Assembly (NCBI GenBank): GCA_014084085.1
Contig: NPFB01000008.1
Span: 16,715-56,725, forward strand
Origin: Hondaea fermentalgiana
Lineage: Eukaryota; Sar; Bigyra; Thraustochytrida; Thraustochytriidae
Reading direction: 5' to 3'
Length of the DNA: 40,011 nt
Shown: piece after piece, positions 11,766 through 23,120 of the stretch
Position numbering within the stretch: position 1 is the first letter of the stretch
Layout: each line of letters begins with the position of its first letter
Notes under the pieces: generated by a model
Seen by the model: the letters and a program-made list of their open reading frames with translations, nothing else
Database searches by the model: none
What the model was told of the DNA's origin: nothing
Position numbers and translations under genes: made by a program

Positions 11766-12271
11766 GCTTGCCGCCGCTCCCTCCCCTCGCATACGTTCCT
11801 CTTTATGGGGTCTCTTTCCGCCTGTGACCCGCCCCTTTTCTTCCATTCTCATTTTTGCTAAAAGAGAAGACTGGGACGATGAGCAGGGCTGTTGGATATC
11901 TGCGTGCGTGCGTGTCTGCCTGCCTGCCTGCCTGCTTGCGTGCGTGCGTGCTGGTTTGAAAGGGCACTGTCCAATTCATCATCTTGGTCTGCGTTTTGTC
12001 TCTTTACCCGGCGCACATGGATCGCTCGCGGTGCGAGACGCTCCTTTCATCACAATCAATTCACATTCACTCACACAGAATCTATTTTACGTGCTGTAGG
12101 TTGCATATATTGGCCGTTGCCAGCCAGCTAGCTAGCTAGCTTTGGCAACTTGTTCCCTTGTGTGCGTGCGTTCGTCTTATCGCATCTCGTGTTTTGCTTT
12201 TTTCTTCGGATTTTCAGACTCAGTCACACTCAATCGAATCAAGTCTATAGCTTGCCACTGTCTCCAAATAA
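11766..12271. other. Convergent 3' spacer with tetranucleotide repeats
   Basis: Spacer between the convergent SLC25 and NIPA-like genes. It holds a mixed GCGT/GCCT array (11902-11951) and a CTAG array near 12124-12141. No gene seen. Confidence 0.6.
11902..11951. repeat. GCGT/GCCT tetranucleotide array
   Basis: Runs of GCGT, then GCCT, then GCGT again, about twelve units in all. Confidence 0.8.
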
Positions 12272-13804
12272 TTACCGCCCATTCCTTGACCTCGAGCGCT
12301 CGAGGATGGCCGCGATGCCGTCAGAAGTCGACGCCGTGGCCGCGCTGGCTCCATTCATAAATCCCGGCGAGCGGCCAGCCTTGGGCGAGCGCATTGGCGT
12401 TCCCGGGGGCGTCTGTGCATCCTCGCCCTGGATGCGCTGTAAAATCTTGTTCGTAAATCCCGGTCGACCCTCGTGCACATCGCTCACTTCAGAATAGGCG
12501 GCGCGCCGGAATGTGTGCAAGAGAGACCGCTCCGCATCCTCCATTGTGCCTGGTTCCGTCTCAACGTCGAGCATGTCGGCCGACCGCGTCCGCCGTTCAA
12601 AATGGCCCAAGTGCAAGAGGTCGTCCATGTGCGAAAGGTTCGCGTGCAGAAAGTCGCTCAGCTCCTGCTGCGTGTGGACCTCGCGATGGGCAACCAAGTA
12701 AACCCCCCAGCTCATGAGCGCAACGCCCGTCGTAAAGCCGATCCAGTCTGGTGTCGTAAAGTCCTGGTATGTTTGATAAAAGAGGACACCAGACACGATC
12801 GTTGCCAAGGTGCCAACGATCTCGTAGATGGGGACTACAAGGCCCTGCTCAAAAGCGCCGAGGCCTACATTGAGGAGCGCCAGCTGGCTGACGAGCATGC
12901 ACACCCAGAGAACGCACAAAAAGGTCGCCTCGGGAGAATCAAATTGATTCTTGCCTCGAATTGTTTTGGAAATGAGAGTTGTCGCCACCTTGGAGAGAGT
13001 CGCGCAAAACGCCGACATGAAGCCGCACAGACCGGCAATGAGCGCGGCATTCAAGTTACCCGTCTTGTGATTACGCCAGTTCTTGACGAGAAACAAGGAC
13101 GTGATGAACATTGTTACCAGCATGAAACCACCCCAATAGCAGTATGGCGGTTCGGTCCATCGGTGGAGAAGGTCTTTTGAGTCCATATCGTCTTCTGGCG
13201 TCGCAGGCGTAAAGACGACGGCGACGCAAGAGCCGACAATGAGGATTGTGCAGTGTAACGCGTCCCAGCGCCGTACCAAAACGTCCCACGAGCATTCGCG
13301 CTGTGGCGGAAAGAGATGAAAGGTCTCTTGGAAGATGAACACGGAGAATGCTGCGTTCCACACCAGCGTAAAGTTACTAAGCAACGCAACATTGGTTTGC
13401 GATGTCAGCGACATGGCGAAGAGCTCAAGGGCGTTGCCCAAAATAAAGACGATCAGTCCGAGCAACCAGCCGCAATTTCGCATCAGCTCAAAGCTATCTG
13501 GAACCTGCGTGTCGTTGATGGCATTGGCTTCGCGCATGCTCCTCTCTGTAAAAACTGTCATGATCTCGCTATCTGTTTCGGTCTCCTCCCCCTCGTCCTC
13601 TTCCTCGGCGAGTGCGGCGTAACCTCCGCCAGCGCCGCTACCAGCCCGAAACGAGGAACCCGTTGGCTCTACGGCGCCATGCATTCTATTGTTCTCAATC
13701 AGTTTCATGACGGCGACCTTTTGCATCGCGAGTCCAGCTACCGTGAAGAAGTCAGCGCCCAGCACCTCCACGAGGGCGCCGATCAACGTGTACAGATTCA
13801 ACAT
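12272..13804 (-). CDS. NIPA-like magnesium transporter (DMT superfamily)
   Basis: The protein has 510 residues from the ATG at 13804. An upstream in-frame extension exists but encodes Arg/Ala/Cys leader-like sequence, while transmembrane helix 1 starts directly after this ATG (residues 5-31). About nine hydrophobic helices are visible: 5-31, 111-132, 136-162, 183-200, 221-241, 251-272, 292-313, 321-345 and 352-373. Family-like segments are GNALELFAMSLTSQTNVALLS (122-142 region), LVWNAAFSVFIFQE (147-160) and LVVPIYEIVGTLATI (322-336). NIPA proteins are Mg2+ transporters of plasma or endosomal membranes. Unusual are a 75-residue, acidic Glu/Asp-rich loop between helices 1 and 2 and a 135-residue hydrophilic tail with Ser-Pro motifs, suggestive of regulation by phosphorylation. 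Substrate is inferred from the family. Confidence 0.82.
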   Translation of the reverse strand: MLNLYTLIGALVEVLGADFFTVAGLAMQKVAVMKLIENNRMHGAVEPTGSSFRAGSGAGGGYAALAEEEDEGEETETDSEIMTVFTERSMREANAINDTQVPDSFELMRNCGWLLGLIVFILGNALELFAMSLTSQTNVALLSNFTLVWNAAFSVFIFQETFHLFPPQRECSWDVLVRRWDALHCTILIVGSCVAVVFTPATPEDDMDSKDLLHRWTEPPYCYWGGFMLVTMFITSLFLVKNWRNHKTGNLNAALIAGLCGFMSAFCATLSKVATTLISKTIRGKNQFDSPEATFLCVLWVCMLVSQLALLNVGLGAFEQGLVVPIYEIVGTLATIVSGVLFYQTYQDFTTPDWIGFTTGVALMSWGVYLVAHREVHTQQELSDFLHANLSHMDDLLHLGHFERRTRSADMLDVETEPGTMEDAERSLLHTFRRAAYSEVSDVHEGRPGFTNKILQRIQGEDAQTPPGTPMRSPKAGRSPGFMNGASAATASTSDGIAAILERSRSRNGR

Positions 13805-14819
13805 TTTCGCACACGCGCACAAACAACCGCAAGCACGCACAGGCGCAGCTCGAGGCTTGCGCGATACCAAACGGCGTCGAGCGAGCGGAGTGACCGGGAG
13901 TGGAGTTGGGCTGAGCTTCCGCTTCTGCTCTTGGGCCACGAGCTAGCTAGCTCCAACGAAGAAGTAGCCGCCGGCGAGATACTATCTCCCACGAAAAGAG
14001 AAGGCGACGTCGAGAGCGAGGGCCCTTCGCAGCGTCCTGCACGTCGCCCTCCCTCGCCAGCCGCGGCCCCGGCCTCGCGCGTCTCGCCCACCCGCTCGCC
14101 GCGGCGCAGCAGACCGGGCCGTGTCGAGCGCCGTTCTGGCGCACGCCAGCCGGGGTTTCTCTCGCCGCGCCCGCCTGCGAAGGCGCGCCCGCGCGAGGCG
14201 TCGCTCCCTCGCTCGCTGCGGCCGGCCGGCCGGCAGGCTGGCTGGCTGGCTGGCCCGCGCTGCCACGCGCCGCAGCCGCCGTCCGCGCCGCGCCGGGAGC
14301 GAAACGGGCTTTGCGCGCCGGAAAAGCCTCGTCCGCCTCAGCAGCTTCAACGAGACTTTTGGGGGCGAGATTGGGTCGCTTTGGCACGTCCTAGCGACGA
14401 CCTCATGATGACATCATCGCGATCATCGTGTTTTGTTCGTTCGCGTGCTGTTAGTTGGGGCTGCTGGAGGCAAGCCAAGGCCAGAAAAGCTCGACGAGCG
14501 CCAGCCAGGCGAACAGGGCATCTTCATCGAGCGTGAACGCGGAGGAAAACTATGCTTTCTTTGGGGGAGGGCACGAGCAGGGAAAAGGCGATGGTGGAAT
14601 GTTTCTCGTGGTTGGCGGGGTGGGGTGCTGGGCGATGGAACATGATGCCAAATTAGGCTTTTACGGGTTGTGAGCCTTCCTTTCAAACTTGTCGAGCATG
14701 AGAGCCGAGCCTGCGTATGTGTTGTGATCGCCTGGTCGTTATCTCTTCTTTTCGACCTTTCGCCGGTTCGCCAGTTTCTTGGCTAGGCCTACTTGCCGTT
14801 CGAGGCCTTGACTCCAAGC
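13805..14819. promoter_or_regulatory. Upstream region of the NIPA-like gene and 3' flank of the transposase gene
   Basis: The left 600 bases are very GC-rich and contain a GGCC/GCTG array (about 14219-14256) and the repeated 17-mer at 13933-13949. The right 400 bases are the 3' flank of the transposase. No TTAA and no obvious terminal inverted repeat were found. A short + strand frame at about 14455-14673 (ending GGGHEQGKGDGGMFLVVGG...) looks protein-like but has no ATG and follows a TAG; it is left unassigned. Confidence 0.5.
13933..13949. repeat. 17-base word repeated at 1395-1411
   Basis: GGCCACGAGCTAGCTAG occurs exactly here and at 1395-1411, both within 0.25 kb upstream of a start codon, but in opposite orientation relative to the gene. 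Confidence 0.6.
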
Positions 14820-17800
14820 TTAGGCCTGAGAGTGATGATGCGGGTCGAGCGACTGCAGACTATGCCATCTTTCGAAACAACTTGTACTTTGCGAAGAGGT
14901 TTTATGATTCACCTGGCAATGAAGAGCAACCTTGCAGATAGAGCATTCACGGGTGGCTTGGGAGCCGGGCCCACAAAGCGCACAAACACTCACTTTTGGC
15001 GAGCCATTGTCATACAAACCTAGCGAAACAGACTGATGAGGTAGGTTTGAACAAAGTCTCACGCGTCTTCCGTGCTCGTCGGTATCAAACCACTTCCGGC
15101 GCTTCTTTGCACGTTTTCCAGGACAACGAGCCACAATCGCGTGAGCCATGTCCAAGGAGATTTCCAAAGTACTTGAGACTGCGGAGTCACTAGCTACTGG
15201 CGAAGGCACTCGTGTCTGAGACGTTGGGGTTGAAACTTGGAGTCCTAAAAAATCCGTGCTATGCTTCGTGAACTGCATTGCAAGGTCCATCACAAAGGCG
15301 TCCACAGATAGTGTCTCGTTGCATGCTCTACGGAAAGACTCGAGTGAGTCCCATTGGAAGTCAAAGGTGCCGTTCGACTTGGTGCATGCGTGAACGACCC
15401 TGAAAATGATAAAGGAGTTGACCACTAATTGTAGAATCCCCTGTAATGCGACTTTCTGCTGAAGATTTGTGCGAAATGATCCTCTTGAATCGATGTCGGC
15501 GACGAACTGGGAATGGCCGTCCATTCTGCCTTTCATTGTGTTGTAGACAACCTGTGCGAGGCTTTTGAAGACGCGGATAGGACGAAGTGGGCCTCCCTGG
15601 ACTTTCCGCCGGAGCGCACGCCAGAGGCGAATATGCGACGAGATTATGGCGCGATGTTCCTCATTGAAATAAGCGGCAGGAGGAGACGGGGGTGGAGTGT
15701 CGTCCTCGAGACCAACATACGCCCACGAAAATAGGTTTTCGAACCGCATGAGAGCCGCCTTATATGCGCTCCGTACACTTCGTGGAACCTGCACGAGACA
15801 CGCAAAGAGGACCTCGGTGACGCTCCCCTCAACATAAAGGACTGCATCAATGTCAAGGACCATGGCCTGGTAAAGAACTCGTCCTCGATGTTGATCCGGA
15901 ATGATCGACCACCAAAGATCATCACCGACCTTGCAGGAGAAGTAACGGCCCCTTTGCTGTTGAATCTTTGTTGCTCGTTCGAGCGATTCATTTGCTGACC
16001 TCGTTTTGATCTCGACACTTGCAAGAATTTGACTTGTGTTCGGACCCTTGCCGGGCGCCGTCAATTGCGCGACGGCATCACTGGAGACGGCCAGAAATGG
16101 TTCTCTTTCTCGCGAAAGCAAGCCGACCTTAAAGATATGGCGGCACCAAACCTGGTTCTGTATGGATTTGAAAAGGTTGGCCTTGTTAATGGTTCCTGTC
16201 TTCATTTGCTTTGTCACGACTCCGCGCGAGAAAAACCAAGAGGCCATAAGCGACTCTGCCGCAGCACGAAGAACCTCGTTCGGGTTATTCTCCACTGCTG
16301 TGTCGAAGGCTTCGATGCCGTCCTGAAAACCCTCATCATCTGCTTCCTCAAGATCGCCGCGATTGTCCTCTAAGTCGCTAGTAACGGACTCGGCGTCGTT
16401 GTCATCAAGCTCAGCAGTGCTGGCGCCGTCGCCGTCGTGGTCTTCAGCTTCGTTCTCAGCATTCCCAGAATCTCCATCGGAGTCCTCGTCCGGGCCTTCG
16501 CTGCCAGCGTCCTCGTGGATTCTGCTGGCACCCTCAGGGCTGACGGACGAGTCGCTGTTGTCATCGTCGGACGTTCTTTCATTAATGCGATGGACATCCC
16601 ACGCAGTCTTCAATAAAAAGCGGCGTGCCTCCGGAGATTGGCGCGCGAGGAGGTGACTAGTTGTACCAGTGAGAACCATCGTCCGGAGCACAGACCAGTC
16701 CGCGCAACGTTGCCAACACGTAAGGGGAAGCACCCCACGAGACTTGAGAGCTTGCTCCATTGTTCGTAATGCCATAGACTTGCTGCTTGTGCTGCACGGG
16801 TAAAAGAGAACATCTTTGGACAGCCGGGTCCCTTTTGGAAAGTCCAAGGGCTCCATGCAAATCGTACGTGGAAGCTTCTTCTCGTGGCTGAATCCACTCG
16901 TCACAAAGCGAAGTACTCTGGTCGGCTTCTCGGAAGCACAGTCTTGATAGTCTCTGAAAGCAATTGCCATGAGCGACTTTCTTGAGGTTCCTTCACCCAC
17001 GCTCGAGGTTGCTGCGTATAATTCACGGCCCAGGAGTGGCGCATCGTCTATGACAAAGTTCGGGTCGAAATTAGAAACCTTGGCGCTGATCGCCCTTGCC
17101 TTGACATTCTCAAGCGTTTCGCGTTGGCAGCCAAATTTTCCTCGCGCAGGATTCTCTCGTGACGCAGAGTTCTCTTGTGACGAAGTATTCTCTTGCGACG
17201 AGGCATTCACTTGCGACGAAGATGTAGCACGGCTCTCGTTGATGTCGCGGCGTTGGGCGCGCACTTTCGCCAATCTCTTTTCAGCGCTCTCTACCTTCTT
17301 CAGGGCCGTATCTAAGGGGACGAAAGGGTCGCCCGCAGTGTTGGAAATCATGAGGAACCACGCACCACGAGCGAGAATCGCCGACCACAGCTTACTCTTA
17401 CTATATCCACGGTCGGCCGTCATGCCGACGGATCGAAGTGATCCGCGTTGACCATTGAAGACATCAACATCGGTGAGGAGACTTTCCACGGCTGCAGCTT
17501 GATTGTATTCCCAGCCATTGTGCCGGACAGCGTGCATGATGCGAAGAAGAGAGTCGGCAACTGCATCATTCTTGACGCTGTCGGCCTGATGCACCTCTTT
17601 TGAGCGGGTTCCCACGAGCTCATCATCTACGACGAGTATGCCGTCGTGCGACGCGGTTAGTCTTCGCGTGCTGACAAAGAGGGACTGTTCAAAGTGTCTC
17701 ATGCTCTCCACCAAGTCCGTGCTCGGTCCAAATGTCGCTCCGCTCGTCTGGAAGCTGGAAGGGTCGATCGCACTCACGTGCTTTAAAATCTGCTTGAAAC

Positions 17801-18359
17801 GCTCAAGGGGAAGCGGGTGCCCTTGGCCCAGAGTAACTTGAAGCCACATCATGCCAGCGCTCCTTGACAGGGTGGTCATATGGAAGAAAATTAGAGCCCC
17901 CACGAACCGCAGGAACTCGGCTTCATCAACCCTTTCTACGTCAGGGTCAAGTCTGCGAATACCTTCGTTGATGCAAGGGACCATTCGCGAAACAACCCTG
18001 CCCATGACGAGATACGCGACGTGCATTGCTTTGATCCCGGAGGCATTCTCGACGTTGCGAAACAACGTCTTTCCTTCGGTAGTTACATGATCATGGATGT
18101 CTTTGCACTGACGCTTGAGCCCAGGCATGAAAATCTGCGAACGTACATCCGCCGAATACTCCAATTCATACGTGTTTGGAGATGGCAAGAGTGTCCAAGC
18201 CGTCTGCGTAGGAGTCGGCGCTGACGCTTCACTTGCTGCACCAGAAGGTGCGGCCTCGACAGTCTTTCGTTTGCGAGGCGTGTAGTTCTTGCAGCCACGA
18301 AACGACGAGCGCTTGTGACCGGTCTCTCCGCAACTTGCGCACGTCGATTGCTGCGACAT
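14820..18359 (-). CDS. piggyBac-family transposase with inserted PD-(D/E)XK nuclease domain
   Basis: This is one intact frame of 1,179 residues from the ATG at 18359 (the frame is open upstream, but without ATG). Order of parts: zinc knuckle C7-C10-H15-C23; piggyBac-like core with D245 in VVDDELVGTR (the SIDE...GFRGR position) and D316 in TADRGY (the CDNWF position); Ser/Gln repeat (380-403); acidic linker (596-690); nuclease domain (about 694-865) with E702, D761 in AVSSDA, E783-I-K785 and Q831, as in YqaJ/lambda-exonuclease-like enzymes; then the third aspartate D947 in YNTMKGRMDG followed by VVNSFIIFRVV, as in piggyBac; and a cysteine-rich C-terminal domain (C1126, C1129, C1139, C1142, C1148, H1152, C1161, H1166). 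Known piggyBac enzymes excise and insert at TTAA with a DDD site. A nuclease placed between D2 and D3 is unusual. The absence of stops suggests recent activity or selection. Confidence 0.85.
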   Translation of the reverse strand: MSQQSTCASCGETGHKRSSFRGCKNYTPRKRKTVEAAPSGAASEASAPTPTQTAWTLLPSPNTYELEYSADVRSQIFMPGLKRQCKDIHDHVTTEGKTLFRNVENASGIKAMHVAYLVMGRVVSRMVPCINEGIRRLDPDVERVDEAEFLRFVGALIFFHMTTLSRSAGMMWLQVTLGQGHPLPLERFKQILKHVSAIDPSSFQTSGATFGPSTDLVESMRHFEQSLFVSTRRLTASHDGILVVDDELVGTRSKEVHQADSVKNDAVADSLLRIMHAVRHNGWEYNQAAAVESLLTDVDVFNGQRGSLRSVGMTADRGYSKSKLWSAILARGAWFLMISNTAGDPFVPLDTALKKVESAEKRLAKVRAQRRDINESRATSSSQVNASSQENTSSQENSASRENPARGKFGCQRETLENVKARAISAKVSNFDPNFVIDDAPLLGRELYAATSSVGEGTSRKSLMAIAFRDYQDCASEKPTRVLRFVTSGFSHEKKLPRTICMEPLDFPKGTRLSKDVLFYPCSTSSKSMALRTMEQALKSRGVLPLTCWQRCADWSVLRTMVLTGTTSHLLARQSPEARRFLLKTAWDVHRINERTSDDDNSDSSVSPEGASRIHEDAGSEGPDEDSDGDSGNAENEAEDHDGDGASTAELDDNDAESVTSDLEDNRGDLEEADDEGFQDGIEAFDTAVENNPNEVLRAAAESLMASWFFSRGVVTKQMKTGTINKANLFKSIQNQVWCRHIFKVGLLSREREPFLAVSSDAVAQLTAPGKGPNTSQILASVEIKTRSANESLERATKIQQQRGRYFSCKVGDDLWWSIIPDQHRGRVLYQAMVLDIDAVLYVEGSVTEVLFACLVQVPRSVRSAYKAALMRFENLFSWAYVGLEDDTPPPSPPAAYFNEEHRAIISSHIRLWRALRRKVQGGPLRPIRVFKSLAQVVYNTMKGRMDGHSQFVADIDSRGSFRTNLQQKVALQGILQLVVNSFIIFRVVHACTKSNGTFDFQWDSLESFRRACNETLSVDAFVMDLAMQFTKHSTDFLGLQVSTPTSQTRVPSPVASDSAVSSTLEISLDMAHAIVARCPGKRAKKRRKWFDTDEHGRRVRLCSNLPHQSVSLGLYDNGSPKVSVCALCGPGSQATRECSICKVALHCQVNHKTSSQSTSCFERWHSLQSLDPHHHSQA
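15765..16280 (-). other. PD-(D/E)XK nuclease domain inside the transposase
   Basis: This marks residues 694-865 of the transposase. The order N694-E695...E702, then SSD761, then VEIKTR (782-787) and YQAMVLDIDAV (830-840) follows the YqaJ/lambda-exonuclease plan: helical E, acidic D at a strand end, ExK, and a helix with a conserved Gln. The metal-binding residues D761, E783 and K785 are all present, so catalysis is plausible. The assignment rests on motif order and spacing read by eye, not on a profile search. Confidence 0.65.
17151..17222 (-). repeat. 18-base coding tandem repeat (SSQENx) in the transposase
   Basis: About four imperfect 18-base units encode SSQVNA, SSQENT, SSQENS and SRENPA-like hexapeptides (residues 380-403), a flexible Ser/Gln/Asn linker between the D2 region and the following segment. 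Confidence 0.7.
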
Positions 18360-19250
18360 CCTAACGGCGACAGGCGCACGCGAGCTTGCTCGAGGCAGCT
18401 TACGGTTAGGCTGCGCCAAGCGCAACTTCGCCTCAGCTCGTGCAGAACCACGCTACCTTTGCTCACGCACGAGGACGGCAATGGACTGCGACGAAGCCCG
18501 GGTGGACGCACGACCCGTTCTCGTCCGTTGGGCCCTGCACGCGCTCAAACTTTTGGGGGATCGCTTGCGCGCAACGTGAGCGACCTTCTCTAGCGTCCGC
18601 GGTTAGGTTGGGGTTCTGTGTGCTGAGGCTTGGCTTATATCCCTTGACAACTCAAGAGAAAACAAGCGGGAACAAAAATTTCACTTCTGCACAACCCCGA
18701 AATAAATCTGGATAATTCAAGAGAACATGCGTAGCGAGAGAGATGTAGGGTTCGTATAGTGTTCGCTAGCCCGTCCATTTGCAGCACCGGCCGGTGAGAT
18801 AGATGGACAAGAGGCTCAGATGTGCAAATAGTGCGCATACCTTGAGCAATTGTAGAAAAACCCAGACCAGTGCACACAAAGCAGCATTGTGATGAATTGA
18901 TCGTCTTTCCCCGAAGACTTGCGCTTTCCGAGATTGGATGTTTTTACAATCTCCTGGAAGTCAGTAACTTGCGCTTCCAAGAGCGCAAAGATGTCAGCTG
19001 GCCGTTTAGAGACGCACACTAGATTAGTTGCGCTTACAGCGCGAAGGATGCCGTCGACAAGCTTTTCTCGCGCACCTGTTCGACGGCGAGCATCTTCATT
19101 TGATTCGTTAGAGCAGCGACGTCAGGCACACTGGCAAGTAGCAGACAACGCTGCGGTGGATCGATTCTCGATGCCTCGACGCTTGGCACTCGACGCACGA
19201 CGCTCGAAGACAAAACGCTCAGCGCGCCGCTAAAGGCGGGAGGAGCTTAT
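18360..19250. other. Spacer between transposase and CBP/p300 gene
   Basis: The stretch holds the promoter side of the transposase gene and the 3' flank of the acetyltransferase gene; both read leftward. It is AT-richer than the neighbouring genes near 18640-18730. No TTAA is present. An exon-like open segment on the - strand (18841-19093) is listed separately. Confidence 0.5.
18635..19093 (-). pseudogene. Exon-like orphan open segment, possible gene remnant
   Basis: A - strand segment (19093-18841) is open for about 84 codons and reads like globular protein (EKLVDGILRAVSATN, KRPADIFALLEAQVTDFQE, GKRKSSGKDD) but has no in-frame ATG. It is preceded by an intron-end-like CTAAC...AAG and followed by a strong donor-like AAG/GTATGC at 18840. 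A matching acceptor (TTGTGCAG, ending 18687) would join it in frame to a short tail that stops at 18635. The open segment begins only about 160 bases after the stop of the acetyltransferase gene, leaving little room for a first exon. It may be a truncated relic or part of the transposon. Family not recognised. Confidence 0.25.
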
Positions 19251-22200
19251 TTAGCTAGCGAGGTTTCGGCGACGAGCAATAGGGGTGACGGCCTTGAGCC
19301 CCTGGCGTGTGGCCTTCTTGTGGTAGTGCATGAGCACAAGCGACGAGTGTTTGGCACGACGCAATTCATCGAATTGAATACTATTGTGCTTGCAAATGTC
19401 GAGAAACTCCATGCGCGTGTCAAAGATGCCCGGAGGGAGAACTGGATCCGGGTCGCTTGTGTCGTCTGTGAGCAGCACCCCACCCAAGTCCGTGACCTTG
19501 GGAGGCAGTGCATTCTCGGCTGAGCCGCCATTGGCAGCCGATGGTCCTTGAAGAGGAGAAGCCTCATTCAAAGTCAGAACGAGAAAGTTTTCGGACATTG
19601 GCTTGATGGCTGCCGCGAGCCGACGCATGAGCCAATCATTGCGTTGCTGCGGCGAGGCGAAGCCCTTGTGAAGATCTGCGTCTTCCAGATCCACGGTCGG
19701 CGCCACCTTCCACATTGGGGACCGCACTGCCTCCAGAGTTCCGCCCTTACCCTCGGGAGCCACCGCAGGAATTGAAGATGCTGTCGGTTTGACTGTAGTG
19801 GAAGCGTTTCCGGCGGTCGCCACCGTTGTGGCCCCTGCAGCCGCAGTCGCGTTGTCACCCGTTGCCGCTCCCGTAGAATTCTGAGCATTTTGAGTTGCAG
19901 ACGTTGCACGAACATCGGCATTAGCATTTTTGCCAGAGCCTTGCAGGAGTGTAGCATGCGTTCGCACGCCCCAGACTTCACGCCACCATACAGCAATCTG
20001 CTCGTCGACAGAAGACTGGAGCCGGTTGTCCGCGCCATCACGAGGATTCCGCAAAATGTTCAACAGTGACTCCACCTCGTTCGGAAGATAATCGCCATAG
20101 AAATAAGGCACAGTCTCGATCGGAAATTGAATTTGGGACGGCCCAAAAGTGCCCGCCATAACCGCAGTCGTTGGCGACGTTGGAGACGCTGGTCGATCTG
20201 CGCCAAAAGATTGCCCGTACGCTCCTGCATTGAGAACTGAGCTCGGTTTGCCCCCGCCTTGGATCACCCCTCCTCCTAATCCTAACCCCCTATTTTGTGC
20301 GGCTGCTGCACTGGGCTTGCCCGGACCGTAAAGACCGCCGCCGCCACCGCCGCCGCCTGCTGCACTTGATGGCACGGCTGAAGCAGGCGGCCCTGGAGCC
20401 GCTGGTGGACGGCGGCCTCGGGACGACCGCGTGTTGAGGAGTGGGCGAAATTGCGAAAGGTGTTTGTCGTAATAATTTGTCTCAGCCAAGACCACACCTT
20501 CGTCCTTGCATGTTTGGACAATCTGCGCGTACCACTTGCGTAAACGCTCAATACCAGGCGAACGCTGCCACTTGGGATGGCAATAGAGAATGTAGGCATC
20601 TCCGCGCTGCGGCGGGCAAGCCCAAATATAACATGTCTCGAAGCCTCGCGCCTTGCACCAACGAAAGTAGCTCACCATCACTTCTTGATACAGAGCCGTG
20701 CGCAGACCCGCAGGCTCAATGTACGCCACTGAATCAAGGTACGAGACGTAAATACAGCCTTTGTTAGGCGCAGGACAACTGGCGCCATACTCTTGCACAT
20801 AGAGAACGAAGCACAGCACATCAATTCCATCGATGCGTCGAAAGAGCAGCACCGTCTTGGACCGGCACGGAAAACGTCGCGCAAAATCGGTCCCAGCATA
20901 CGCGTCCCCACACGATTTGCGTTGCGCTTCAATCCAACGCAATGCTCTTGCCTCGTACTCGGTGACGACATCCCGGCTCGAAACCACGCGCAAAGTGATT
21001 GAATCTGCAAACTCTTGCGACGCTTGCGCACACGCGACCTTGCGCACCTGGTCCTCGAGGTAAGCGCCCATGGCTGTGTGTGGTAAAGAGTCTGCCCAAG
21101 GGTCGGCATCACGCAATACGCCCTGCACCGTTTCCTGCGGCGAAGACATGTTGACGCTCCCGCCATTGCCCTCTCCTCCATTCCCAGCGTTCGCGTCACC
21201 GCTTTCCTCGGACCGCTGCCGTTTCGCAGGCGGATCCTCGGTGGCTTCCAATTGCCTCTTTTCACCGACGACTTGAGTTGGAGCAGCCACGTCCGCGCTT
21301 TGCGCAGGGACAGCAAGGTCGGCCGGGACGGCAGAGGCGGAGACGGAGGGATCTTCCTTTTCTTCTGCAGCGTTTGTATTTTGCGCAGGAACGGAAGTGT
21401 CCGCCTTTGTTGCGCCGTTTGTTGAAAGGTGCCGTACGCTCGACTTCAGGCCACGCGATGCGGCAACGCAAATGGCGCAGCGGAAAAGTGTCCCGCTACG
21501 CACAATTGAGGAGTGAAAAAGGGAACAGATCTGGTGGACTCTTCGACTACAGTTACCACATTGAGCCCAGGGTTCACGATAGACGTCATTGTTCACACGC
21601 CGCTCCAATTCGCTCTTGCGCATCGGCTGGCCGAGCACACCCAAAAAGTGCTCTGGCAGAGCCGTGTAGCAGCGGTTGCACCAATGTTGTCCACGGTCGC
21701 CGCCAAAGCGATAATAGACAGCATTTCGATTGATGCGCGCTTTGCACGGCGCGCTGCAGCGAAGTGCGGGTTCCTGAAAGTGCAGACAGCCACGACCGCA
21801 CAGCTCGCAAGTGGCGCCCTTGCACGACTCGCACGAGTGCGTGGCGGCGGCCGCCTCTTGCGCGCGATGTTCGGCCACGAGCTTGTCAAAGTCGGCGTGG
21901 AAGGCCTTGTTTAGTTTCTTTGCTGCCTGGTGGACTGCAAATCGCGGAGGATTAAAGAGCATTGCGTTGCTAAACACAAGCTCCACGTCACGTCCAAAGG
22001 CCTCCAAGTCCGCGTACTCGTGTCTCTGCAATTTTTTTCGCATTGTACCAAGATCCATTGGGGACTTGACAACGTCAAAGTATGTGGGAAGTTGGAGAGC
22101 TACAGGATCGACCGGATTGTTAAAGATGCCTCGGTTCATCTTGTGCTCGTAGAGCCTACGCAGGAGCAAGGTTAGCGGCGTAAAGACGCGGTTGCTCTCC

Positions 22201-22653
22201 TTGCCCAGGTCCTCAAGGTGGTGTTTCAAGTCCTCATCACTCATGAGGGCGCCCCCAACAACAGATAGTGCCTGGACCTCTTCCCGAGACAGCGCGCGCG
22301 GTCGCCGCTTTTCCACTACGTTTTCGGGTGTCTTGGCGTTATCCTCGGGCTTGAGGGGTACAGCCTTCGAGTCGGCGTTGGCATCGTTGGCAGCAGATTC
22401 CGAGGCAACACCGTTAGCGTCAGCATCTGGGTCTTGCGCTCTGCGTGCGCTGGCCTCACTATCGGCCCATTCGCGCCACAGCCGCAACACGCTTAGCTTT
22501 TGGGCCTTGAGCGCGCTTTGCAAGGAGGTCCCCTCGAGCGGCTCCTTCTTCGTGGCCTCTCGCTCTCGCTCCTCTCGCTGCTGTTCTTGCTCATTTTGCT
22601 GCTGTGGCTCAGCTGCAGCCGCACTCGCAAGGGGCACCGCTGCCGCTCGCTCG

Positions 22654-22686
<33 letters not shown>

Positions 22687-22736
22687 TGCTGCGCCGTCTC
22701 GGGCGCCGCCATGTGCGGCTCCGCCTCCTTCTCCAT
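19251..22736 (-). CDS. CBP/p300-type histone acetyltransferase (KAT3)
   Basis: The protein has 1,161 residues from the ATG at 22736. Its frame is open further up through the assembly gap, but that part is GC-repeat leader. Domains: polyQ (15-27); bromodomain (about 190-290, with NPVDPVALQLPTYFDVVKSP); RING/PHD cysteine-rich region (302-423, including CGNCSRRVHQIC); acetyltransferase from about 545, with YVQEYGASCPAPN (646-658), YVSYLDSVAYI (663-673), GLRTALYQEV (677-686) and YIWACPPQRGDAY (703-715). Later core pieces VPYFYGDYLPNEVE (876-889) and DPDPVLPP...ELRRAKHSS (1095-1132) are present, separated by low-complexity insertions at about 771-870 and 930-1010. TAZ1, KIX, ZZ and TAZ2 are not seen. 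The enzyme acetylates histone tails from acetyl-CoA in the nucleus as a transcription coactivator. Bromodomain-RING-PHD-HAT order matches animal CBP rather than plant HAC proteins, which lack the bromodomain. Confidence 0.93.
22656..22684. repeat. (CTG)n, polyglutamine-coding repeat
   Basis: About nine to ten CTG units on + encode the Gln run near the N-terminus of the acetyltransferase on the - strand. Confidence 0.85.
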
Positions 22737-22797
22737 GGCGGCCGTCCCTCGCGGACGGAAATCCCGCGCGGGCGGGCGCGCGGGCGAGGAGCGCGGG

Positions 22798-22818
22798 CGA
22801 GCGCGCGCGCGCGCGCGC
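22798..22818. repeat. (GC)n run abutting the gap
   Basis: Alternating GC at the left edge of the N block; sequence of this kind commonly stops assembly and can form Z-DNA. Confidence 0.8.
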
Positions 22819-22918
22819 NNNNNNNNNNNNNNNNNNNNNNNNNNNNNNNNNNNNNNNNNNNNNNNNNNNNNNNNNNNNNNNNNNNNNNNNNNNNNNNNNN
22901 NNNNNNNNNNNNNNNNNN
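22819..22918. other. Assembly gap (100 N)
   Basis: Exactly 100 Ns, the usual placeholder length for a gap of unknown size. Sequence on both sides is GCGC/CGCG-rich, so the gap probably hides more of the same repeat. Confidence 0.98.
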
Positions 22919-23120
22919 CGCGAGCGAATGGAGAGCGCGCGCGTCGCGGGCCTCCGACGCCGCGCGCGCACCGAGGCGCGGCGAGCCGAGAGAAGATAGG
23001 CGTCTGCATGCGCGTCTCTCTCCCTCTCTCAAATAGTGTTTCGTTATCTCGCTCCATCCCGGCCGTGTCTTGTCTCGAGACAGTTCGGGCAGACCGCCAT
23101 CGCGCCCGGCCCTCGCGCCC

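Follow-up and report, generated by a model that had tools for sequence, protein, structure and literature searches.

A gene of the thraustochytrid Hondaea fermentalgiana encodes a transposase with three catalytic aspartates (DDD, here D1, D2 and D3), in which a second domain, of the type found in lambda exonuclease and YqaJ, is nested between D2 and D3. The gene lies on the minus strand of a 40,011-nucleotide stretch of contig NPFB01000008.1 (assembly GCA_014084085.1), which is called the window here. The architecture is real across a family of copies in the same genome, and the family is a relative of piggyBac that probably acts in a similar way. The best explanation of the window gene is that it is a stranded, once mobile member of this piggyBac-like family, whose nested nuclease trims the donor ends; we give this explanation about an even chance of being correct.

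The transposase and its nested domain

The gene is a single open reading frame (ORF) at 14820-18359, running from ATG to stop without interruption, so that the intact chain of the original prediction is confirmed. When the genome, 238 contigs with a total of 36 Mb, was searched at the protein level, 18 matches were obtained, one of them the window itself. Six further long uninterrupted ORFs have the same domain order. They are L009 and L010, which lie on one contig about 109 kb apart, and L011, L012, L013 and L014, with identities to the window protein of 41, 40, 25, 21, 20 and 23%, respectively. These seven copies were aligned with MAFFT (alignment A1), and a second alignment (A2) holds three copies. 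Omitted from A1 were two more members that run into stretches of N (L015 and L018), the more distant L060, which has a gap after its nuclease, the distant L068, which also has a gap and is closer to L060, and decayed pieces at additional loci.

The features of the window gene are as follows.

14820..18359, minus strand: whole-protein ORF of 1179 amino acids; an alternative in-frame TTG start would extend it to 18425
18291..18341, minus strand: N-terminal zinc-knuckle-like motif, residues 7-23 (C7, C10, H15, C23), invariant in the three copies of A2
17625..17627, minus strand: first catalytic aspartate, D245 in VVDDELVG; the corresponding regions of L009 and L010 are covered by a PF01609 match
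17412..17414, minus strand: second catalytic aspartate, D316 in TADRGY; the corresponding regions of L009 and L010 are covered by a PF01609 match
16890..17066, minus strand: residues 432-490, a possible remnant of a piggyBac-type beta insertion domain, read from the seven-copy alignment and placed according to the part of PMC7351741 used here
16560..16742, minus strand: opening segment of the nested nuclease (residues 540-600), which carries QRxxxW...R...T, from comparison with the YqaJ profile
16290..16547, minus strand: acidic linker within the nuclease, about residues 605-690, seen in the sequence and omitted for the profile match
16182..16184, minus strand: K726, which stands where the YqaJ fold has its first conserved glutamate; L009, L010, L011 and L060 have Glu there
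15765..16277, minus strand: principal segment of the nested nuclease (about residues 695-865), carrying D761, E783-x-K785 and Q831, from alignment and profile
15519..15545, minus strand: Y939-N940...D947, with the third catalytic aspartate; spacing as in piggyBac Y439-N440...D447
14862..14984, minus strand: C-terminal Cys/His domain, residues 1126-1166, its Cys and His residues invariant in all seven copies of A1

The three aspartates are found where they had been predicted, with 71 residues between D1 and D2 and 631 between D2 and D3. All three, together with the D, ExK and Q of the nested domain (D761, E783, K785 and Q831 in the window protein), are kept in three of the seven copies: the window copy, L009 and L010, called the catalytic copies below. 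In the other four (L011-L014) D3 is lost throughout, and of the nuclease residues (D, E, K, Q) every copy is missing one or more, the residue alignment itself being uncertain in the most distant copies. An unrooted tree of the seven separates the same two groups with a support of 100 and joins L009 to L010 with a support of 73.

Y939, N940 and D947 are invariant in the three catalytic copies, and D947 of the window copy stands in YNTMKGRMD (YNxxKGxxD). In piggyBac, residues Y439, N440, G444, G445 and D447 are named as lying at the hairpin, the transposon end or the active site (PMC7351741, in the part used here); the spacing of Y, N and D is thus equal in the two proteins. The C-terminal Cys/His domain appears to resemble the end-binding domain of piggyBac by its residue pattern. 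Both this domain and the N-terminal zinc knuckle had been predicted, and the conservation listed above bears both out. When the two transposase parts are rejoined, L009 and L010 match PF01609 at 27.8 and 25.1 bits (cut-off 23) over stretches that span D1 and D2; the window copy itself has no match to PF01609. It matches PF13843 at 20.2 bits (cut-off 22.4), over residues 121-233 only and as the one member among the seven to do so. In the genome search the same match scored 23.3 bits, and with the insert omitted 21.6.

The nested domain has the motif order Q..W..R..T, GxxxE, D, ExK, Q of lambda exonuclease and YqaJ (PF09588). It differs from these proteins in being nested in a transposase, in being split by an acidic linker and, in the window copy, in having K726 for the first glutamate. 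The relationship is supported by a comparison of profiles. Against a YqaJ profile of 12 sequences (11 from phages, with the YqaJ protein of the host as the twelfth), the nuclease profile of the three catalytic copies, with the linker omitted, reached a probability of 92.0%, which rose to 96.9% when L011 was added; the profile with L060 added reached 95.6%. Forty column shuffles of the three-sequence profile gave at most 13.5%. Control regions of the protein (the two transposase parts, the pre-nuclease stretch and residues 60-1060 entire) gave at most 0.3%. L060 alone has a probability of 1.6% against YqaJ, but of 96.8% against the nuclease profile of the present family. In addition, PF09588 matches the nuclease of L010 over positions 1-146 of 150 (E 0.007, 17.1 bits, curated cut-off 22).

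The first glutamate of the fold is a metal ligand in lambda exonuclease. The original prediction had placed it at E702, a residue that is E in L009 and C in L010. In the alignment with the relatives and the 12 YqaJ proteins, GxxxE falls instead on GTINK, and hence on K726; the remainder of the predicted order, D761, E783, K785 and Q831, holds. Because a lysine replaces the first glutamate, a working nuclease is doubtful in the window copy. The predicted fusion of a DDD transposase with a nuclease between D2 and D3 is therefore upheld by the profile comparison and by the same order in the relatives, with the reservation that an active second nuclease is doubtful in the window copy, whose nested domain is derived from the YqaJ fold and is not classed as a working member of it.

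A stand-alone YqaJ/lambda-exonuclease-like protein of 305 amino acids is encoded at L024 (1186-2100, plus strand); it is the sole PF09588 match found in the genome. Two further proteins match the piggyBac profile PF13843, at 104 bits (L025 on contig C189, 407-5029, plus strand) and 36 bits (L026 on contig C24, 2406-5468, minus strand). Both have long charged N-terminal regions and, by eye, lack at least one catalytic aspartate, and they may thus be host genes from other piggyBac elements.

Ends and flanks of the family

The ends of piggyBac begin with CCC, and so do the ends of the present family. On contig C186 there is an insertion with CCCTAAC ends, which is flanked by ATAT on both sides and has a 100-N gap inside. 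One of its ends recurs on contig C27 (97% identical over 157 bp) and the other on C229 (100% over 53 bp), in both cases beside runs of N. Near-identical copies with ends of this type exist, and we infer that they encode the protein described here. The near-identical ends are situated at 2559-2860 of L041 (C186), from 1446 of L058 (C27) and up to 7613 of L059 (C229), as if a recent family had been left unassembled.

One transposon end is still discernible beside the window gene:

18597..18750, minus strand: 5' transposon end remnant, 76% identical to the C186 end over 18597-18732, terminating at 18750 with CCCTACAT and flanked by CGAA

No copy of the C186 end or of its repeats was found in 12000-14830 as a second end, and the 2.5 kb that flank the ORF on each side contain no TTAA. 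An end pair at 14047/18750, in which 7 of 9 positions and 3 of 4 flanking positions match, was judged to be due to chance. At the DNA level, a query of 13945-19245 found no further counterpart of the ORF in the genome. Since there is no recognisable second end and the first metal ligand is a lysine, this copy has probably lost its mobility, and its nuclease is probably weak or dead.

Three relatives are decayed, internally deleted copies. L017 is 81-87% identical to L011 at the DNA level with the middle absent; L019 (of the L011 type) and L020 (of the L010 type) are deleted in the same manner. The limits of similarity of L017 coincide with inverted ends, ATAT CCCGAAAAC ... GTTTTCGGG ATAT, and those of L019 do likewise, ATAT CCCGATGA ... 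TCATCGGG ATAT. These ends are of the CCCGA type. At L011 itself the CCCGA ends adjoin GTAT and ATGT. The 5' end of L009 reads ATAT CCCCTGATT; a 15-nt inverted repeat is present 49 nt from the ATAT on both sides of this copy, and the 3' side does not begin with CCC.

Altogether, nine of 12 CCC-type ends (two each from C186, L017, L019 and L011, and one each from C27, C229, L009 and the window) are flanked by ATAT, a count that is not free of choice, because some of the ends were sought as CCC beside ATAT; those of L017 and L019 were located by the limits of similarity instead. The remaining flanks are GTAT and ATGT at L011 and CGAA in the window. Of all tetranucleotides, ATAT accounts for 0.09% in the window and for 0.19% in the loci. 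Because ATAT consists of two AT units, the duplication may also be one of 2 bp beside ends that begin with AT, a reading that would fit L011, where GT is present on both sides.

Strong palindromes are found 13-42 bp from the end at four of the 12 ends, namely on both sides of L017 and L019; the other eight are similar to shuffled sequence. The palindromes are located at 1194-1209 and 3296-3319 of L017 and at 1324-1347 and 3502-3529 of L019, near the site of the internal palindromic repeat of piggyBac. A search for end pairs at the window copy, L009, L010, L012, L013, L014 and L020 gave 0-4 candidates per locus, compared with 0-1.2 in shuffled sequence, none of them convincing. This search is insensitive, as the ends of L011 and L019 were missed by the general search.

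The original assignment to the piggyBac type stands with respect to the DDD residues and the third aspartate in YN...D. Strict membership does not follow from it: the flanks are mostly ATAT where those of piggyBac are TTAA, and for this reason the family is not filed as a plain piggyBac member.

Origin and role of the nested nuclease

The likeness to piggyBac from Trichoplusia ni comprises the DDD residues, the spacing of YN...D, the short flanking duplication and, by its residue pattern, the Cys-rich C-terminal domain (PMC7351741, in the part used here). The differences are that about 100 residues separate D2 from D3 in piggyBac and an entire nuclease is accommodated there in the window protein, and that the latter has an N-terminal zinc knuckle and only a short, borderline match to PF13843. 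The insertion domain of piggyBac, described in the same part of that paper, is a small three-strand module. It follows the fifth RNase H strand, a position that it shares with the insertion domains of other DDE/D transposases, and it lines the channel for the DNA. The nested nuclease is best regarded as a guest that occupies this insertion-domain site of DDE enzymes.

Three other combinations of a transposase with a nuclease are comparable, as far as the portions of the papers cited here describe them. In Dada elements of Laccaria and Ectocarpus a nuclease is similarly nested between the second catalytic aspartate and the last catalytic residue (PMC3706591). The Dada nuclease is, however, a DEDDy 3'-5' exonuclease in a DDE transposase with a DxxH motif that targets small-RNA genes, whereas the nested domain of the window has ExK and matches YqaJ, not DEDDy (DxxH was not searched for here). 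KolobokE also combines a lambda-exonuclease-like PD-(D/E)XK nuclease with a DDD/E transposase (PMC9587614); it belongs to the Kolobok superfamily with its C/DxxH signature, and its nuclease is located downstream of the transposase rather than before the third aspartate, as it is before D947 here. ISL2EU is a eukaryotic DNA transposon that carries a YqaJ nuclease, in a separate second ORF beside a PIF/Harbinger-related transposase and not in one ORF as here (PMC4482050). In the open-access literature no report of a lambda-exonuclease/YqaJ domain in a piggyBac-like transposase was found; Repbase reports and most subscription journals, which were outside the scope of the search, may record one.

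piggyBac is known for seamless excision. In the explanation favoured here, the element would be excised and reinserted in the manner of piggyBac, with the nested nuclease trimming the broken donor ends in the 5' to 3' direction. Trimming would steer the donor gap into copying repair, by which the element would be restored at the donor site. Copying that stops early would leave internally deleted copies such as L017, L019 and L020. Trimming of donor ends would be the likeliest role of the nested nuclease; for Dada, the authors propose that the nested exonuclease processes the cleaved 3' ends (PMC3706591, in the part used here).

In favour of this explanation are the open ORF with its residues and their spacing, the shared domain order of the relatives, the PF01609 matches of L009 and L010, the YqaJ profile match of the family, the three internally deleted copies, the CCC-type ends beside ATAT at several relatives and the likeness of the window's upstream stretch to the C186 end. 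Several observations weigh against it. The nuclease is recognized in the family and not in the window copy, since the window sequence alone reaches only 0.8% against the YqaJ profile and the nuclease region falls to 36.5% when the acidic linker is retained. Pfam gives no nuclease match in the window copy, and a single-sequence structure model has a mean predicted local distance difference test score of 36.8, too low to interpret. Searches at L010, L012, L013 and L014 did not find their ends. The interiors of the insertions on C186, C27 and C229 consist of N. The copies with clean terminal inverted repeats, L017 and L019, group with L011, in which both active sites are damaged, and not with the catalytic copies. 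The resection step, finally, is something that we infer.

It is possible, at well below an even chance, that the window gene is instead a host gene, kept for DNA binding or for programmed cutting by the DDD site, in which the nested nuclease no longer cuts. The ORF is open with its three aspartates intact, the locus is single-copy and situated amid host-like genes, the second end and ATAT are both lacking, and K726 occupies the column of the first glutamate, all as expected of such a gene. The end remnant that adjoins it, on the other hand, is that of a transposon.

A function of the nested nuclease in transposition itself, in which it opens the hairpin, cuts the second strand or aids the choice of ATAT targets, is considered unlikely. 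The nuclease does occupy the position at which, in piggyBac, the insertion domain forms a lining of the DNA channel (PMC7351741, in the part used here), and the flanks of the family differ from TTAA. However, L017 and L019 have CCC ends and ATAT although the nuclease of their closest full-length relative is damaged. The fold is closest to exonucleases working on ends, and enzymes of the YqaJ/lambda-exonuclease type act on DNA ends. Moreover, piggyBac performs the hairpin and strand steps with the DDD site alone (PMC7351741, in the same part).

It is rather improbable that the nested domain is a DNA-binding module derived from a nuclease and non-cutting across the whole family. K726 in the window copy and the incomplete set of D, E, K and Q in four of the seven copies would agree with such a module, but these four copies have also lost transposase residues, and L009 and L010 retain D, ExK and Q together with the Glu of GxxNE. 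That a nested nuclease is absent altogether, and that the motifs came into this order by chance in a long acidic insert, can be given hardly any credence: the poor scores of the window sequence alone and with the linker retained, and its lack of a Pfam nuclease match, are outweighed by family profiles at 92-97% as against the shuffles, by the end-to-end match of L010 alone to PF09588, albeit under the curated cut-off, and by the presence of the motifs in L060.

A piggyBac relative that has an entire exonuclease-type domain at the insertion-domain site and is flanked by ATAT would demonstrate that a second enzyme is accepted there, as is the case in Dada with an unrelated exonuclease (PMC3706591, in the part used here). 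It would then become testable whether a transposase can choose the host's repair route for the break that it leaves behind. A more tentative proposal, which we put forward with considerable reserve, is that of a piggyBac-like lineage with its own resection nuclease, in which one chain would excise the element and commit the donor break to copying, each jump would restore the donor copy, and ATAT would be used instead of TTAA.

Neighbouring genes and further observations

The neighbours of the window gene look host-like. A NIPA-type transporter is encoded at 12272-13939, and a p300-type acetyltransferase with a bromodomain at 19251-23057. A 100-N run at 22819-22918 is situated within the stop-to-stop frame of the acetyltransferase, whose N-terminus is therefore uncertain. 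Also encoded in the window are CCDC39 and an ion channel with four repeats, both of which point to a eukaryote. Rfam gave no match across the window, nor in L009-L011.

Relatives were also sought outside the genome. Pattern scans with a few short peptides confirmed none in viral contigs (peptides from the three-copy alignment and from L060) or in bacterial and archaeal genomes (peptides from the three-copy alignment). Scanning of the viral contigs with the host's YqaJ protein gave no relatives; phage records gave some. A PDB sequence search with the three-copy profile returned four weak matches, which are unrelated, and PHROGs returned one weak match of unknown function.

Two repeats were observed within coding sequences of the family. 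In L012 (1810-5478, minus strand) the C-terminal Cys/His domain is present twice, in tandem. In the window ORF, three tandem 18-nt units at 17145-17198 encode a Ser/Gln/Glu-rich stretch past D2.

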